NCBI GenBank assembly: GCA_022843445.1
Contig: JALHNS010000016.1
Location: forward strand, 1 to 38,904
Direction: 5' to 3'
Length of the DNA: 38,904 nucleotides
From: Gemmata sp.
Lineage (GTDB): Bacteria; Planctomycetota; Planctomycetia; Gemmatales; Gemmataceae
Part shown: positions 8,373-35,012 of the stretch, piece by piece
How the letters are laid out: each line of letters starts with the position of its first letter
How positions within the stretch are numbered: position 1 is the stretch's first letter
The notes under the pieces: generated by a model
Told to the model about the DNA's origin: nothing
Seen by the model: the letters and a program-made list of their open reading frames with translations, nothing else
The model's database searches: none
Position numbers and translations under genes: made by a program

Positions 8373-8912
8373 ATGTCCGGTCCCGAACTGATGTTGGCCG
8401 CGGCGCTCTTGTGCGCGCCGGTGGACGCTCCCGAACCGGTGCCCGCCGAGGCCGCGTGGCCCGCCGTGCGCGCCGCCGTGCACGCGCTCGCGCTCGAGTG
8501 GCAGGTGATGGACCCGCGCGAGACGCGGTACGTGTTCGCCAACCGCGCCGACTTCGCCGCCGATTTGAACCTGCTGCGCAAGCGCGTGGCGGAACTGGCC
8601 GACGCGCCCAAACTCGAGGCGTGCAAGTGGCTGCCCGAGCGCCGCGCGGTGAACGAACTGGTGCGCCAGAACCGCGCGTTCCGGTGCGAACTCGAGGCGC
8701 GCCGCCCGTGGGAGCCGGACCGCGCCGACCTGCTGCACGACGCGCTGCGCGAGGTGGACCGCCTGTACCGCCCGTGGGACGCGCTCCGCGACGCGCAGTG
8801 CGACTTCTACTACGTGACCGTGCGCCGCGCCGCGCTGAAGAAGGTGCGCGACGCGATCGGCGAAGAGGCGTTCGCGGCCGGCCGCATGCCCTACGCGATC
8901 CCGCCGCGGTAA
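8373..8912 (+). CDS. Hypothetical protein, 179 aa
   Basis: ORF MSGPELMLAAALLCAPVDAPEPVPAEAAWPAV... with high-GC third-position bias. Confidence 0.65.
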   Translation: MSGPELMLAAALLCAPVDAPEPVPAEAAWPAVRAAVHALALEWQVMDPRETRYVFANRADFAADLNLLRKRVAELADAPKLEACKWLPERRAVNELVRQNRAFRCELEARRPWEPDRADLLHDALREVDRLYRPWDALRDAQCDFYYVTVRRAALKKVRDAIGEEAFAAGRMPYAIPPR

Positions 8913-8932: not shown

Positions 8933-9005
8933 CGGCGAACGGCCGGTGTGAACCGGCCGGTGCGCGGCGCGACAGAACCGGCCGGCTCACGCCGGCCGTT
9001 CGCCG
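8933..9005. repeat. Long inverted repeat with nested palindromic arms
   Basis: Left 8933-8961 cggcgaacggccggtgtgaaccggccggt; right 8977-9005 accggccggctcacgccggccgttcgccg. Complementary over 29 nt apart from two positions. Each arm also folds on itself: cggccggt-gtga-accggccg and cggccggc-tcac-gccggccg. Confidence 0.9.
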
Positions 9006-19826: not shown

Positions 19827-20768
19827 ATGCCCGATGCCGTGAAATGGGAGCCCACCGCGTGCCCGGTGTGTCGCTGCGCCGACGCCGGCGAGTTCCTGCG
19901 CGCGCCGGGCGACGACGGCAAAGAGTATCGGCTCGCCAAGTGCCGCGCCTGCGAACTCGTGTTCCTCGACCCGCGACCGACCGAAGACACCGTCGGCCTG
20001 CTGTACACCGAAGACTACCCGCAGTATCGCGGATCGAAGCTGAAGAACGGCCCGCTGCGCCGGCTGCGCGCGAAGCTGTTCGGGCACCGCGAGCGCAGCT
20101 TGGCCGACCGCATCCCGGTCGTGCCCGGCGGCGCGCTGCTCGATTACGGCTGCGGCGCGGGGCACTTCGTCGCGCAGATGCGCGACCGCGGCTGGAACGC
20201 GTTCGGCATGGACTTCAGCCCGCACGCGGTGCAGAGCGCGAAAGAGAGCTACGGCGTGCGCGCCGTGTGCGGCACGCTCCCGCACCCGGACGTGCCGCCG
20301 AACTCGCTCGACGCGCTCACGCTGCGAATGGTGCTCGAACACGTCCACGACCCCGCGGCGCTGCTGCGTCACGCGCTGGTGGCGCTGAAACCCGGCGGCG
20401 CGCTGTGCGTGGCGGTGCCGAACCTCGCGGCGTGGGGCTTCGGCGCGTTCGGGAAGGCGTGGTTCCCCTTGCGCTTGCCGTGGCACTTGTCCCACTTCAC
20501 GCCCGATACACTGGCCCGCACGGTGCGCGCGTCCGGGTTCGAGGTGGAGACGGTGGCGACGAAAGGTCACACGAACTGGACCGGCTACTCGGTGCGCCGG
20601 GCGCGCGAACTGAACCCGAAGTGGTGGACGCCGTTCGCCCGCGTGCGCCTCGTGCGCAGCGCGCTCTCGAAGTGGACCGAGCGCCGCGGGGCCGGTGACG
20701 AACTGTGCCTGCTGGCGCGAAAGCCGCTTCGCGCGGCACTGGAAGTGCCCATGCGCCGCGCGGCCTAA
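19827..20768 (+). CDS. Class I SAM-dependent methyltransferase with N-terminal zinc-ribbon-like cysteines
   Basis: CPVCRCADAG...KCRACELVFLDPRP; LLDYGCGAGHFVAQMRDRGWNAFGMDFSP; LRMVLEHVHDPAALL. Confidence 0.92.
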   Translation: MPDAVKWEPTACPVCRCADAGEFLRAPGDDGKEYRLAKCRACELVFLDPRPTEDTVGLLYTEDYPQYRGSKLKNGPLRRLRAKLFGHRERSLADRIPVVPGGALLDYGCGAGHFVAQMRDRGWNAFGMDFSPHAVQSAKESYGVRAVCGTLPHPDVPPNSLDALTLRMVLEHVHDPAALLRHALVALKPGGALCVAVPNLAAWGFGAFGKAWFPLRLPWHLSHFTPDTLARTVRASGFEVETVATKGHTNWTGYSVRRARELNPKWWTPFARVRLVRSALSKWTERRGAGDELCLLARKPLRAALEVPMRRAA

Positions 20769-20773
20769 GCGTT

Positions 20774-20859
20774 CAACGAACGAGCCGGAAGCGTGAGCGA
20801 CGGTCTTCATTCTTCAGGTGAAGAGAAGACAGTCGCTCACGCTTCCGGCTCGTTCGTTG
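20774..20859. terminator. Long hairpin between convergent gene ends (candidate bidirectional terminator / intergenic repeat)
   Basis: Left 20774-20808 caacgaacgagccggaagcgtgagcgacggtcttc; right 20825-20859 gaagacagtcgctcacgcttccggctcgttcgttg. 35-nt arms with one mismatch and a 16-nt loop. Confidence 0.85.
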
Positions 20860-20869
20860 GGCGCGCCGT

Positions 20870-21045: not shown

Positions 21046-22449
21046 TCACCACGGTTGCCCGATCGCTTTCGCGACGAGGTCGTAGCCGTCGGCGGCGGTG
21101 ACCTTCGCGCGCACGAAGTCGCCCGGTTGCAGGTTCTTCGCTTTCACGCGCACTTCGCAGTCGATCTCGGGTGCGTCGGCGGTGGTGCGCCCGCGGAAGT
21201 GGTTCGCGAACTCCGGGTCCGGGCCGTCGATTACCACCGCGTGCTCTTTGCCCACCTGCGCGTTCGCCCACCCGAACGCCACCTGCTGTTGCACTTCCAT
21301 GATCGCGGCCACGCGGGCCGCTTTCACGTCTTCGGGCAGGTGGCCGTCGAGCTTCTCCGCCGGCGTGCCGGGTTCGAGCGAGTACGGGAACACCCCCACG
21401 CGCTCGAACTTGAAGTCCCGCACGAACGCGCGCAGCTCCTCGAACTCGGCGTCCGTTTCGCCGGGGAAGCCGGTGATGAACGTGGTGCGGATCGCGAGGT
21501 CCGTCCACTTCGCCCGTAGCCGGTGCAGCAGGCTTTCCGTCGCGGCGCGGTCCACGCGGCGAATCATGCGCTTCAGCACGCGGTCGTTGATGTGCTGAAG
21601 CGGCATGTCCAGATACGGGATGATCTTCTTCGCGCCCGCGAACGTCTCGATGATCTCGTCCGAGATGTGTTCGGGGTAGGCGTACAACGTGCGAATCCAC
21701 TCGATGCCCGGCACCTTGTCGAGTTCGCGCAGCAGTTCCGCGAGCCGCGAGCGGCCGTACAGGTCGAAGCCGTAATACGTCGTGTCTTGGGCGACGATGA
21801 TGAGCTCGCGCACGCCGTCGGCCGCGAGTTCGTGCGCCTCGCGGATCACTTCCTCGATCGGCTTCGTGACGTGCTTGCCGCGCATCTTCGGGATCGCGCA
21901 GTAGGTGCAAAGCCGGTCGCAGCCCTCGCTGATTTTTAGGTACGCGAAGTGCCGCGGGGTGATGCGCAGCCGCGCGGTGTCTTCGAGCGCCCGCACCGGC
22001 GCGGGGCGGAACAAACTGCGCTGTTCGCTCTGCTGCGAAACGGCGCGATCGACCACTGCGGCGATGTCTTCGCGGCCGAAGACGCCCACGATCTGATCGA
22101 CTTCGGGCACCTGTTCGAGCAGTACCTCGCGCTGGCGCTCGGCCATGCACCCGGCGACGACGACCGCGCCGACCTTCCCGGCCTTCTTGAGCGCGAGCAT
22201 TTCGCGGATGACCGCGAGCGACTCTTGGCGCGCCGGTTCGATGAACCCGCAGGTGTTCACGACTACAACGTCCGCGCCGTCGGCGTCCGGTTGGAACGCG
22301 TAGCCGTCTTGCGCGAGTTTGCCGAGCATGCGCTCGCTATCGACGGTGTTCTTCGGGCAGCCGAGCGAAATGAACGCGTAGCTGCCTTTGCCCTCGGCGC
22401 TCGTCGCCGGTGCCGAAGGAGTGGTGAGCGGAAGCGACTTCACGGACAT
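21046..22449 (-). CDS. rimO: Ribosomal protein S12 methylthiotransferase RimO
   Basis: SLGCPKNTVDSERMLG, VNTCGFIEPARQES, AGCMAERQ, ISEGCDRLCTYCAIPKMRG (radical SAM CxxxCxxC), C-terminal TRAM-like region. Confidence 0.96.
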   Translation of the reverse strand: MSVKSLPLTTPSAPATSAEGKGSYAFISLGCPKNTVDSERMLGKLAQDGYAFQPDADGADVVVVNTCGFIEPARQESLAVIREMLALKKAGKVGAVVVAGCMAERQREVLLEQVPEVDQIVGVFGREDIAAVVDRAVSQQSEQRSLFRPAPVRALEDTARLRITPRHFAYLKISEGCDRLCTYCAIPKMRGKHVTKPIEEVIREAHELAADGVRELIIVAQDTTYYGFDLYGRSRLAELLRELDKVPGIEWIRTLYAYPEHISDEIIETFAGAKKIIPYLDMPLQHINDRVLKRMIRRVDRAATESLLHRLRAKWTDLAIRTTFITGFPGETDAEFEELRAFVRDFKFERVGVFPYSLEPGTPAEKLDGHLPEDVKAARVAAIMEVQQQVAFGWANAQVGKEHAVVIDGPDPEFANHFRGRTTADAPEIDCEVRVKAKNLQPGDFVRAKVTAADGYDLVAKAIGQPW

Positions 22450-22500
22450 GCGGGTGCGGCTCGTGGTGCGGCGAAGTTCAAATGGGCATTGTAGGTGAGG

Positions 22501-22585
22501 CGCGGTCGTAGGACAGGCTTCCAGCCTGTCCCGGTACGCGCGTTGGCAGCGCCGGGACAGGCTGGAAGCCTGTCCTACGACCGCG
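22501..22585. repeat. Perfect 34-bp inverted repeat, nested palindromic arms, overlapping a gene 3' end
   Basis: Left 22501-22534 cgcggtcgtaggacaggcttccagcctgtcccgg; right 22552-22585 is its exact reverse complement; 17-nt loop. Each arm contains ggacaggct-tcc/gga-agcctgtcc. Confidence 0.95.
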
Positions 22586-23264
22586 CCAACAACGCGTCGC
22601 ACACCCAGCAACCGCGGGCGTGGTCGCGGGCGTCGCGGCAGTGCGCGAGTACCTGTTCGTTCTCGCACCCGGCTTCTTGGAGCGCGTCCGCGAGGATCGG
22701 CATCGCAGAAAAGTCGCGCGATTCGTACATGCTCTGCGCGAGGGCGACCGCGTCCGAGGTGCGCCACCCGGGGTCGAAGGAAACCGGCGCGAACGGGTTC
22801 CCGATGATGCAGCGGAGGAGTTCGCATTGCGCCGCGAACTCCGCGAGCAGTTCCGCCGGTTCTCTGCTGCCTGACGCGAACAGTGGTAGGTCAGCCGCAG
22901 CGTACGCAGCGGATTGCGCTACATCTCGCGCCATATCGCCGGGATTGCTGGGAAAACACGCCACTCGGCAAGCATCCAGTAGGTGGAGCAGATAGCCGAT
23001 GGAGTTCGCGTCGCGGCCAGCGGCGCTCGCACTCGCGTCGAGCGTGTGGAGCACGTGTTCGAGTGTGCCCGTCTTCAGTGCGCTGTCGGCGAACAGTTCC
23101 GCTGCCACCAGCGCTCGCTCCGCGATACCCGGCGCGAACTCGTTCAACGCCGACCGGCAGCAGGCGCACGAGAACAACCGCAACTTTCGCGCGCTGGCGC
23201 GCTCGCGAGCGAAGTTGATCATCTGCCATGGCCGCTCGGCGGTCAGCCACTCGCGTTCGGTCAT
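22575..23264 (-). CDS. Gemmata-type paralogous family protein of unknown function
   Basis: MTEREWLTAERPWQMINFARERASARKLRLFSCACCR ... RCIIGNPFAPVSFDPGWRTSDAVALAQSMYESRDFSAMPILADALQEAGCENEQVLAHCRDARDHARGCWVCDALLARS resembles a protein family I recall as expanded in Gemmataceae. Confidence 0.82.
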   Translation of the reverse strand: MTEREWLTAERPWQMINFARERASARKLRLFSCACCRSALNEFAPGIAERALVAAELFADSALKTGTLEHVLHTLDASASAAGRDANSIGYLLHLLDACRVACFPSNPGDMARDVAQSAAYAAADLPLFASGSREPAELLAEFAAQCELLRCIIGNPFAPVSFDPGWRTSDAVALAQSMYESRDFSAMPILADALQEAGCENEQVLAHCRDARDHARGCWVCDALLARS

Positions 23265-28489: not shown

Positions 28490-30460
28490 ATGGCTACCCC
28501 GAACCAGCCGAACCAGCCGAAAAAGACCGGTGACGGCTCGCAGAACAAGACCGAAGGCGCGAAGGGCGAGGGCGCGAAGGGGCAGCCGACCAACAAGCCC
28601 ACCGGCCCCGCGCCCGTGAACAAGCCCGGCGCGAAACCGGCGGCGCAAAGTGGCGCCGGCGGCGGCGCGGCCAAAGTGCCGCAACCCGCGCCGGCCGCGA
28701 AGAAGCCCGCGCCCGCGAAGAACCGCTTCGCGCACATCGACGCCAACACGCTCCAACTCGCCCGCAAACTCGAAGACCTCGGCTTCCTCGACGGCGCGCA
28801 AATCGAGTCGCTGTACGAGGAAATGCGCACCTCCGACGCCACCCTCGGCGAACTCGCGCAGCAGCGCAACCTGCTGAACGAGGAGCAGTTGCTTCAGGCG
28901 CTCGCCGAACTGCACGGCATGCGCGTCGCCAACCTCGAAGAGACCAAGCCGCACCCGGCCGCGGTCAAACTCGTGCAGAAGCAGATGGCCGAGTTGTACA
29001 AGCTGGTGCCGCTGACGTACGAGAACGAGACGCTCACCGTGGCGATGTCGGACCCGAACAACATGCAGGCGATGGACGACCTGCGCAACCTGCTGAATAT
29101 CAAGCAAGTGCAGCCGGTTCTCGCGCCGCCCAAACAGATCGAAACCCTTCTGGCGAAAGCGTATTCGACCGAGAAAGAGGAGTCGATCAGCTCGCTGATT
29201 ACCGCCCTTGAAGCCTCCGACATCGGCACCGTGGCTTACGGGCGCGAGAACTCCATCGACCTCGACGACATGATCGAGATGGCGAACGCCGCCCCCGTGC
29301 GGAAGCTCATCAACATGGTGATGTTGATGGCGATCCGCGACCACGCCTCGGACGTTCACTTCGAGCCGTTCGAAGACGAGTACAAGATGCGGTACCGGTG
29401 CGACGGCGTGCTGTACGAGATGGTCCCGCCCCCGCGGCACCTCGCGACGGCCATCGCGTCGCGCATCAAGGTTATGGCGAACCTCGACATCGCGGAGCGC
29501 CGCGTGCCGCAGGACGGGCGCATCGAACTGAACGTCGGCGGCAACCCAGTCGACATGCGCGTGAGCGTGCTGCCCACCCTGTTCGGCGAGAGCGTCGTCA
29601 TTCGGGTGCTGGACCGCACGAACGTGGGCCTGTCGCTCGACCGCATCGGGATGCAACCCGACATCCTCGCGCAGTTCCGGGCGGTCATTAAGAAGCCCAA
29701 CGGCATCGTGCTCGTGACCGGGCCGACCGGGGCCGGCAAGACCACCACGCTCTACTCCGCGCTCAGCGAACTGAACGACATCGAGACCAAGATCATCACC
29801 ACCGAAGACCCGGTGGAGTACGAAATCGACGGCATCGTGCAGTGCCCGATCAACCACGAGATCGACCTGACGTTCGCCGCGGCGCTGCGCAGCATCTTGC
29901 GCCAAGACCCGGACGTGATTCTGGTGGGCGAGATCCGCGACCTCGAGACGGCCGGCATTTCGATTCAGGCCTCGCTCACCGGGCACTTGGTGTTCAGCAC
30001 CCTGCACACCAACGACGCGCCCTCGTCCATCACGCGCCTCCGCGACATGGGCGTGGAACCGTTCCTCATCACCGCGACGGTCGAAGCCATCGAGGCGCAG
30101 CGGCTGGTGCGGAAGGTGTGCGTGCACTGCCGCACGCCCTACGAGCCGACCCGCGAGCAGATGATGGAACTGAACCTCACGCCGGAGATGGTCAAGGGCC
30201 GGCCCTTCTTCTACGGCGAGGGGTGCGACAAGTGCAACAACCTCGGCTTCAAGGGCCGCACCGGTCTGTACGAGCTGCTGATCATGAACGACGACCTGCG
30301 GGACATGGTGAGCCGCGGCGCGAGCACCGACGCGATCCGGGCCTACACCCGCAAGCAGGGCACGCACAGCCTGCGCGACGCCGGCCTGCGGGCGCTGTTC
30401 GGCGGCCTCACCACGCTCGACGAGGTGGTGCGCGAGACCGTGATGGAAGACGACAACTAG
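28490..30460 (+). CDS. Type IV pilus / type II secretion assembly ATPase (GspE/PilB), copy 2, with disordered N-terminus
   Basis: Pro/Ala/Lys-rich first ~75 aa, then GspE-N region; LVTGPTGAGKTTTLYSALSEL, ILVGEIRDLETAGISIQASLTGHLVFSTLHTND. Confidence 0.95.
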   Translation: MATPNQPNQPKKTGDGSQNKTEGAKGEGAKGQPTNKPTGPAPVNKPGAKPAAQSGAGGGAAKVPQPAPAAKKPAPAKNRFAHIDANTLQLARKLEDLGFLDGAQIESLYEEMRTSDATLGELAQQRNLLNEEQLLQALAELHGMRVANLEETKPHPAAVKLVQKQMAELYKLVPLTYENETLTVAMSDPNNMQAMDDLRNLLNIKQVQPVLAPPKQIETLLAKAYSTEKEESISSLITALEASDIGTVAYGRENSIDLDDMIEMANAAPVRKLINMVMLMAIRDHASDVHFEPFEDEYKMRYRCDGVLYEMVPPPRHLATAIASRIKVMANLDIAERRVPQDGRIELNVGGNPVDMRVSVLPTLFGESVVIRVLDRTNVGLSLDRIGMQPDILAQFRAVIKKPNGIVLVTGPTGAGKTTTLYSALSELNDIETKIITTEDPVEYEIDGIVQCPINHEIDLTFAAALRSILRQDPDVILVGEIRDLETAGISIQASLTGHLVFSTLHTNDAPSSITRLRDMGVEPFLITATVEAIEAQRLVRKVCVHCRTPYEPTREQMMELNLTPEMVKGRPFFYGEGCDKCNNLGFKGRTGLYELLIMNDDLRDMVSRGASTDAIRAYTRKQGTHSLRDAGLRALFGGLTTLDEVVRETVMEDDN

Positions 30461-30463
30461 CGC

Positions 30464-30541
30464 CGTAGGACGGGCTTCGCCTGTCCCGTCTCGCGCCTTC
30501 GGATCGCCGGGACAGGCGAAGCCCGTCCGACGGGATTTTTT
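30464..30541 (+). terminator. Candidate intrinsic terminator built from a nested inverted repeat
   Basis: Left 30464-30488 cgtaggacgggcttcgcctgtcccg; right 30508-30532 cgggacaggcgaagcccgtccgacg (one mismatch); followed by ggattttttgg. Starts 3 nt after a stop codon. Confidence 0.75.
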
Positions 30542-30693
30542 GGCCGCTTCGAGCGGCCCGCGTAGAGTGGGGTGCTCGCACGCCCCGCGCACCGAGTTGG
30601 AATGCGTTCCCGCGACAAACGTTAGCCCCTTTGAACGCGAAGGGGCGACCGGACCCGGCCCGCGCCGACGCACACCACGGCAGAGGTAGCAGA

Positions 30694-32938: not shown

Positions 32939-33817
32939 ATGACGGGCACGCACGCGACGCGCCGGGCCGGGTTCACGCTGATCGAACTGCTGGTGGTCAT
33001 CTCGATCATCGCGGTCATCGCCGCGCTCGCGGGCGTGGCGCTGCTCAGCACCAGCGAGAGCCAGCGCCGCAACAGCGTCGATCAGCAGGTGGACAAGCTG
33101 CAAAAGGCGCTCGACTCGGAATACGGCACGGTGCTCGCGAACGCGTCGAAGGAGGCGAACATTCCGCCGGCGGTCGTCACCTACGCCGACGGCGTTCCCC
33201 GCGCGCGGGCGCTCTGGGCCGCGGCCAACCTGCGGCGCAACTTCCCGGACACGTTCGCCGAGGCCGGCGCGCGGGTCACGGTGGTGCCCGGCTTTCAGCT
33301 CGAAGCGCTCGCCCCGTTCAACGGGCTGGCGGGTGCCGGCAACCCGCACGAGGAAAGCGCGGCGCTGCTGTACATCGTCCTCACGCAGAAGTCGGCGAGC
33401 GGGGGCGGCAGCACCGCGGGCAGCGGCGACGAACTGGGCCAGACCCGCGACGTGACGCTGAACGGCCGCCCGTTCAAGGTGTTCGTGGACGCGTGGGGCA
33501 ACTCGATCGGGTTCGTGCGCTGGGAAACCGGCACCGAGGCGGTGAACCGGCGCGTGCCGGGCGTCGGGGGCAACTTCGATCCGCTCGACACGTCGAACCT
33601 CGTGTCCGGGTGGACCGACACGACCAAGCGCGCGTGGGCGGCGAGTAGCGGTATGTTCAACACCGGCCGGCCGACGCCGAACTGGCCCAACAACGGGGCC
33701 CCGCCGATGAACCGCATGGTGTCGGTGTACTCGCCCGGCAAAGACAAGGCCGTTGGCACCGCCGACGACCAACTCGGCATCCGGCTCAAGCAACTCGGCG
33801 CGAAGGGGAAACAATGA
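32939..33817 (+). CDS. Prepilin-type N-terminal cleavage domain protein (pseudopilin 2)
   Basis: MTGTHATRRAGFTLIELLVVISIIAVIAALAGVALLSTSESQRRNSVDQQV. Confidence 0.93.
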   Translation: MTGTHATRRAGFTLIELLVVISIIAVIAALAGVALLSTSESQRRNSVDQQVDKLQKALDSEYGTVLANASKEANIPPAVVTYADGVPRARALWAAANLRRNFPDTFAEAGARVTVVPGFQLEALAPFNGLAGAGNPHEESAALLYIVLTQKSASGGGSTAGSGDELGQTRDVTLNGRPFKVFVDAWGNSIGFVRWETGTEAVNRRVPGVGGNFDPLDTSNLVSGWTDTTKRAWAASSGMFNTGRPTPNWPNNGAPPMNRMVSVYSPGKDKAVGTADDQLGIRLKQLGAKGKQ

Positions 33818-34929
33818 TCACGCACACTAACGCGCGCCAGTTCGCGCCGACCCCGCGTTCGCTGTCTCGGCCGCGTGCGGGGTTCACGCTCATCGAACTG
33901 CTGGTGGTGATGGCGCTCACCGCGGCGCTGGGCGCGCTGACGCTCGGCCTGCTGCCGGGCATCGTGAACAAGGACAACACGCTGAAGGCCACCGCGGAGG
34001 TGCAGGGCGCGCTGCGCATCGCGCAGGGGCACGCGGCCTCCACGAAGCAGCCGCGCGGGGTGCGGTTCCTGCCGAACCCGACCAACCCCGCGGTTTCCAC
34101 CGAGATGCAGTACCTCGAAGCGCCCGAGGTGGTCGTTTCCGATCTGCAAGTGCTCGTGCAAGGCCGGCCGCAACCCTATGTGCAGTTCAATTACGACTAC
34201 GACGCGCAGGGGCGCATCGTGAACCGGCACTGCTACCTCATCAACCTGACCGCGGACCAAATCGCGGTGCTCGGCGGCGGTGCCACCGTCTCCAGTCCCG
34301 GCGCGACGTTGAGCATTCCCCCGCTCGGCACGTGGTCGCAAATCAGCGGGTTCACGCCGACGAGCGCGACGAGCGGCGAAGCCCTGTTGGACGTGTACCC
34401 GGACCCGTACTTGGGCGCGGCCGGGCCGCCGCCAAACGGCAGCCCGCAGAACAACGTCGCGATCTACCGCAGCTACCACTTCGGCATCTACGGCGCGCCG
34501 GTGCCGCAACTCGGCGAGCCGACCGTGCCGCTACCGAAGGACATCGCGGTCGATTTGCCGCTGTGCCTGCCGCAGGGCCTCGCGAACGCGAACTACGACG
34601 TCATGTTCGCGCCGAACGGGCAGACGATTACCTCGCGGTTCACCAACGGCACACAGACGACGCAGATCGCGGCCAACGCGGGCGTGTACCTGTGGGTGCG
34701 CGACGTGACGAAGGTGCCGGGGCTGACCCCGCTCTCGCGGCCGACCGTTGCCGCTCCCGGCGCGCCGTGGGTGTTCACGTACAACGACTTTTTGCGCGGC
34801 GGCGAGCAACAGATCGTGGGCGTTCGCAACGGATACGTCGGCACGGCCCCGGTCCTTTGGCCGGTCGCGGGCGGCGGATACGGTCCCGGACAAGACCCGT
34901 ACACTCTGGCCCGGCAGCAGTTGGATTGA
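33814..34929 (+). CDS. Prepilin-type N-terminal cleavage domain protein (pseudopilin 3)
   Basis: RPRAGFTLIELLVVMALTAALGALTLGLLPGIV; overlaps the previous gene by 4 nt (ATGA). Confidence 0.93.
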   Translation: MITHTNARQFAPTPRSLSRPRAGFTLIELLVVMALTAALGALTLGLLPGIVNKDNTLKATAEVQGALRIAQGHAASTKQPRGVRFLPNPTNPAVSTEMQYLEAPEVVVSDLQVLVQGRPQPYVQFNYDYDAQGRIVNRHCYLINLTADQIAVLGGGATVSSPGATLSIPPLGTWSQISGFTPTSATSGEALLDVYPDPYLGAAGPPPNGSPQNNVAIYRSYHFGIYGAPVPQLGEPTVPLPKDIAVDLPLCLPQGLANANYDVMFAPNGQTITSRFTNGTQTTQIAANAGVYLWVRDVTKVPGLTPLSRPTVAAPGAPWVFTYNDFLRGGEQQIVGVRNGYVGTAPVLWPVAGGGYGPGQDPYTLARQQLD

Positions 34930-34935
34930 GTGAGG

Positions 34936-35012
34936 CTTCTGTAGCCGGGGTCTGTGAGGCCGGTGCTACCTTCACAAGCCAGCACCGGCCTCACAGAGGC
35001 CGGCTACAGAAG
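34936..35012. repeat. Long inverted repeat 6 nt after a stop codon
   Basis: Left 34936-34967 cttctgtagccggggtctgtgaggccggtgct; right 34981-35012 agcaccggcctcacagaggccggctacagaag. 32-nt arms with two adjacent mismatches, 13-nt loop. The right arm is itself a hairpin (ccggcctc-aca-gaggccgg). Confidence 0.9.

Follow-up and report, generated by a model that had tools for sequence, protein, structure and literature searches.

The perfect inverted repeat at positions 22499–22587 of the window (the whole stretch of Gemmata sp. DNA analysed here, 38,904 nucleotides) is very probably a non-autonomous REP doublet of the BIME/REPIN type, belonging to the GTAG superfamily, whose copies would have been spread by a RAYT and one of which would have been inserted at the final codon of the gene 22575–23264. 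The structure of the element, its copy number, the pairing of its copies, their position at gene 3' ends, the use of their TAG as a stop codon and the presence of a RAYT beside a sister REP family were directly observed.

The inverted repeat and its setting

The two arms of the repeat, 22499–22534 and 22552–22587, were 36 nt each and 100% complementary, with 17 nt between them. The original prediction had placed a perfect 34-bp repeat at 22501–22585; the perfection and the 17-nt gap were confirmed, and the arms proved to be two pairs longer on the outside. The REP unit consisted of GTAG followed by a 9-bp stem with a 3-nt loop, GGACAGGCT-TCC-AGCCTGTCC. Folded as RNA, the 89-nt element reached −90.8 kcal/mol (z = −17.5 versus dinucleotide shuffles), and the hairpin of a single REP unit, with its 9-bp stem and 3-nt loop, reached −15.2 kcal/mol. 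The repeat sits between two co-directional minus-strand genes, one encoding a 229-aa protein and the other being rimO. The features were the following:

21046–22449, minus strand: rimO (30S ribosomal protein S12 methylthiotransferase; TIGR01125, 499.9 bits), downstream and co-directional, with about 50 nt between its start and the left arm
22499–22534, plus strand: left arm, with the REP unit GTAG...TCC at 22508–22531, bordered by CGG on the inner side and by 9 nt on the outer side
22499–22507, plus strand: left outer stretch GGCGCGGTC, beyond the REP core, inverted-identical to 22579–22587
22535–22551, no strand: linker of 17 nt between both REP units
22552–22587, minus strand: right arm, with the REP unit GTAG...TCC at 22578–22555
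22575–22578, minus strand: GTAG head of the right REP unit, in which TAG (22577–22575) is the stop codon of the gene 22575–23264
22579–22587, minus strand: right outer stretch GGCGCGGTC, coding (end of a Leu codon, Ala, Arg and the first two bases of Ser), matching 22499–22507
22575–23264, minus strand: gene of the 229-aa protein, from a large genus-specific paralogous family with 62 matches in its own genome, ended by the REP head
30465–30532, no strand: a second pair from the REP family of 22499–22587, with its GTAG head 4 nt past the TAG stop (30458–30460) of the gene 28490–30460

The 229-aa protein matched no family in Pfam or NCBIfam, and a scan of the window with Rfam gave zero hits at gathering thresholds. 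In another genome, a homologue of this protein was found at 12 equal-scoring places of a single contig (G016:C1, e.g., 81105–81812), which suggests a recently multiplied gene, perhaps on a mobile element.

Further hairpins were seen in the window. The second pair of the family, viewed over 30446–30550, had a degenerate right head (GTCG). A different GTAG-headed inverted repeat (GTAGCCGGGGTCTGTGAGGCCGG...) occupied positions 34936–35012, about 6 nt past the gene 33814–34929, with 37-nt arms that were 89% complementary. At 20769–20864, a 40-nt inverted repeat (AACGAACGAGCCGGAAGCGTGAGCGACGG) of −83 kcal/mol directly followed the TAA stop of the gene 19839–20768, in a gap between convergent genes, and a 29-nt inverted repeat at 8933–9005, about 20 nt past the gene 8391–8912, gave a further case of a hairpin at the 3' end of a gene.

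A hairpin of such stability immediately following a gene could simply be an intrinsic terminator, or a local and immobile hairpin specific to 22575–23264, and the element does share with Rho-independent terminators a stable GC-rich hairpin located after the gene. It differs from them in that the T-run of an intrinsic terminator was absent from both strands at the element and in that the repeat is dispersed; its core pattern had 68 genomic matches and homologous loci of the 229-aa protein gene lacked the repeat, all of which make this explanation highly improbable.

Copies, pairing and a candidate mobiliser

When the element was used to search the own genome (7.39 Mb, 636 contigs) at the DNA level, 79 matches were obtained. 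Allowing at most 3 mismatches, the pattern GTAGGACAGGCTTNCAGCCTGTCC produced the 68 matches mentioned above, 34 forward and 34 reverse, compared to 0 for the reversed control pattern. Such a recurrence, like the folding energy, is far more than chance would produce. The aligned copies had in common the GTAG, the 9-bp stem and the 3-nt loop, and CCG was usually present after the stem. The flanks outside GTAG were unconserved, save for a C (76–79%) usually preceded by T or C, and this (Y)C was also present before heads that do not serve as stop codons. The copies were mostly arranged as head-to-head pairs, 29 of which were counted in the own genome, with linkers of 8–87 nt between the 23-nt cores. 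Identical cores were present in 11 of these 29 pairs, and the arms within a pair were more alike than arms from different pairs (permutation p = 1e-4), which is what the spread of pairs as units, or their mutual conversion, would produce. An exact match of the arms is therefore frequent within the family and points to such spread or conversion rather than to a peculiarity of this gene, so that the earlier inference from the perfect arms to something special is weak. The unusual feature of the locus is the extra outer identity of 7–9 nt, which does fit copying between the arms.

Perfect arms in a draft assembly of 636 contigs might also point to an assembly artefact, namely a false inverted join. 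This seems extremely improbable: the sequence beyond the arms differs between the two sides, the same architecture recurs, with mismatched arms, at independent loci and in other genomes, and such joins would not yield in-frame stops genome-wide.

The distribution of the GTAG family was patchy across the genus, with copies in 7 of 19 genomes (the genus relatives compared were planctomycete MAGs), and a search of 22 more distant relatives found none. One relative, G003, held 131 matches to the GTAG REP pattern at up to 2 mismatches. Exact matches were also found in planctomycete, verrucomicrobial, acidobacterial, deltaproteobacterial and chloroflexi assemblies.

Several features of known REPs were present: the GTAG at the foot of the hairpin, a short palindrome within the 6–13-bp stem range, and a high number of dispersed copies. 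The copies were mostly extragenic and downstream of genes, since 36 of the 38 gene-abutting heads were at the stop or at most 13 nt past it; 23 of 61 heads had no same-strand gene end within 200 nt. According to the available text of Di Nocera et al. 2013 (PMC3733652), the termini of GTAG REPs often give a TAG stop to flanking ORFs, and GTAG repeats were reported in the PVC superphylum. The members of the GTAG superfamily described there resemble the present copies in the terminal GTAG, the 6–13-bp stem, the short loop, the head-to-head dimers and the location just past gene 3' ends, a likeness that is one of description and not of consensus sequence. That text, as far as available, gives no rate at which stops are supplied; what was measured here is that rate, together with the last-codon signature and the difference from GTGG repeats.

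The element also agrees with the BIME/REPIN and RAYT (TnpAREP) system (PMC2817692, PMC8266576) in its two inverted REPs behaving as a unit, the variable linker, and the occurrence in the genome of a RAYT flanked by GT[AG]G hairpins. A single protein of the own genome scored above the NCBIfam cut-off for REP-associated transposases (NF047646, C172:4479–4904, 91.6 bits for a cut-off of 80). It was flanked by GTGGCACAGGCTTTCCAGCCTGTGC REP hairpins, which belong to a sister family (GTGGCACAGGCT...) with 88 pattern matches, and several other RAYTs of the genus were likewise flanked by GT[AG]G hairpins. The difference from BIME/REPIN is that this RAYT sits in the GTGGCACAGGCT sister family and not in the GTAGGACAGGCT family, for which it therefore does not count as cognate. 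A RAYT flanked by the GTAGGACAGGC family itself was found neither in the own genome, a 94.6% complete draft in which the gene may be missing, nor at the examined RAYT/Y1_Tnp loci of the genus. The mobilisation by a RAYT is therefore an inference; not all REPs are physically associated with a rayt gene (PMC2817692, table 1). The copies may have spread as single-stranded hairpins moved by a RAYT-like HuH transposase.

Two other arrangements were noted at transposase loci. On contig C172 (L133, G000:C172, approximately 1960–1990), the RAYT's own stop (AAQAF-TAG) was inside the loop of the downstream REP, of its own family. An IS200-type Y1 transposase gene (L008, G000:C241:298–633) had on both sides inverted copies of two other palindromes, TTGCGGTCTGAAGGACCGCGCTTCC and CCCCGGCCACCGGCCGGGG.

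GTAG heads as stop codons

The minus-strand ORF 22575–23264 ends within the right arm as TTG GCG CGG TCG TAG (L-A-R-S-stop), so the original prediction read the sequence correctly in calling the repeat partly coding, with A-R-S-stop in the right arm. This was not an isolated case. With the first codon-usage gene calling, the TAG of GTAG was the in-frame stop of the adjoining gene at 29 of 41 gene-abutting heads. In a stricter rerun, 26 of 38 such heads supplied the stop, 10 more were located 5–13 nt past it and 2 were farther. All the gene-overlapping GTAG heads were in the stop frame (p = 4e-13). The GTGG sister family, also present in this genome, behaved differently, with 0 overlaps for 41 heads and gene ends located 7–126 nt before the head (median 21); the difference in overlap between the two families was highly significant (Fisher p = 5e-12). 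When the overlaps were left out, the GTAG heads were still nearer to the stops (median 8.5 versus 21 nt, p = 0.001). In G003, TAG was the stop at 13 of 19 heads, and the pattern was seen again, in smaller numbers, in other genomes. The gene calls were computational, made with a simple codon-usage model, and the gene statistics cover approximately 41 fetched loci per REP family rather than the whole genome. That GTAG REPs serve as TAG stops is already reported in the available text of PMC3733652; the rate, the exactness and the contrast between sister families are measured here.

Two accounts of this pattern were weighed, both concerning the mechanism within the REP reading. It is quite possible, although short of an even chance, that the pattern is a survival bias, in which copies land anywhere and those falling on a last codon are kept only with an in-frame TAG, because GTAG brings a stop and GTGG does not. 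The strictly in-frame overlaps of GTAG heads and the absence of GTGG heads overlapping a gene end are explained in this way, and some REP-ended genes were a few residues shorter than their homologues. A survival bias also predicts many GTAG copies farther downstream, as in the GTGG family, but only 2 of 38 were beyond 13 nt. This scarcity, which selection against frame-breaking insertions alone leaves unexplained, fits instead a target choice, in which GTAG copies are inserted by their mobiliser at or beside native gene ends and the GTGG family has no such preference. The concentration of GTAG heads (26 of 38 at the stop, a further 10 no more than 13 nt away) compared to the 7–126 nt spread of the GTGG family, and the closeness of even the non-overlapping heads, argue for such a choice. 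We nevertheless consider it rather unlikely, as the stops of homologues show that a native TAG is not the general target, the last codons look element-derived and not native, and no empty site was found.

The comparison with homologues bears on what the element did to the gene ends. The genus homologues of the 229-aa protein end in RGCWVVDLLLGKx, with the Gly-Lys nearly invariant among those displayed, and the own protein ends in RGCWVCDALLARS (LLARS-stop) at the same alignment column. REP-ended genes were compared with their best matches in five REP-less genomes, the loci being located with concatenated C-terminal segments as the query, for location only. The proteins ended at exactly the same residue in 41 of 75 comparisons and mostly within a few residues in the remainder, with a skew toward slightly longer homologues; one FKBP gene, for which the large apparent length differences are due to homologues that are tandem fusions, was kept in the counts. 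The homologues used TGA in 36 of the 75 comparisons, TAG in 20 and TAA in 19.

The last codon was TCG or CCG (Ser or Pro) in 17 of 31 REP-ended genes versus 2 of 56 other genes with an nnG last codon (Fisher p = 6e-8). Since the (Y)C was also present at heads that are not stops, this bias indicates that the last codon plus the stop is supplied by the element edge, or else by a target preference. In G003, the dinucleotide upstream of GTAG was more often AA, and the (Y)C could be a target preference and not part of the element. At 22575–23264, the stop and the last codon are best read as derived from the element. Of the proposed insertion into, or replacement of, the original 3' end, the element-derived last codon and stop are upheld by the TCG/CCG bias and by ARS in place of GKx, and a truncation or extension is contradicted by the common end column. 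The sharing of C-terminal residues with homologues lacking the repeat, which had been named as evidence against such an event, was seen in part: the end position is the same and the last residues differ.

An element always landing on a pre-existing TAG was considered as well, and is disfavoured by the homologue stops and the last-codon bias. An empty site with both flanks conserved was not found among the relatives, in the nearest of which the 229-aa protein was about 50% identical. In two relatives (loci L043 and L045), the neighbourhood with an amidohydrolase gene was kept, the element was absent and rimO was elsewhere. In another genome (L041, G004:C18), the 3' flank of the homologue had a different inverted repeat, GAGCCGCGACCGCAAGGGAGTGG ... 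CCACTTCCTTGGGGTCGCGGCTCG.

Outer identity, proposed origin and possible role in the mRNA

The outer inverted identity GGCGCGGTC, 9 nt long including the TC, was the longest among 93 pairs, the next one being of 5 nt. The Ala and Arg codons of the LLARS end fall in its remaining 7 nt, which have their inverted match on the opposite flank of the element, and this suggests that one arm was copied from the other with the hairpin as template. Given the nearly invariant Gly-Lys of the homologues displayed, it may be the coding side of 22575–23264 that was overwritten by such copying, although the direction is not proven.

We propose that a copy with the edge (Y)C-GTAG landed on the last codon of 22575–23264 in phase to give TC-G TAG. 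The landed copy would thereby have provided a Ser and a stop, leaving the length of the protein unchanged, and copying of one arm from the other, templated by the hairpin, would account for the 7–9 nt of extra outer identity.

Within the transcript, the two 9-bp hairpins might form a structure at the 3' end, as might the long hairpin that combines them and starts at the stop; such a structure could slow ribosomes during termination or hinder 3' exonucleases. REPs of E. coli located within 15 nt of a stop codon were reported to stall ribosomes and reduce translation (Liang et al. 2015, as cited in the available text of PMC12306157). The present stem begins directly at the stop codon and is thus within that distance. 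By analogy, an E. coli-like effect of the REP on ribosomes terminating at this gene is plausible.

It is also conceivable, although we hold it doubtful, that GTAG REPs are steered to native gene ends by their mobiliser or by a link with translation termination, where they replace the last codon and the stop while the length is kept, and that GTGG repeats insert loosely downstream. The GTAG head would in that case serve as a stop codon that each copy carries with it, so that an insertion at a gene end would be neutral. The odd perfect palindrome leads to a measurable genome-wide rule, in which a mobile hairpin carrying its own stop is found exactly at gene ends and its TAG-less sister family is not. 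The two sister families within one genome constitute a natural experiment on target choice, survival or a termination function at 3' ends.
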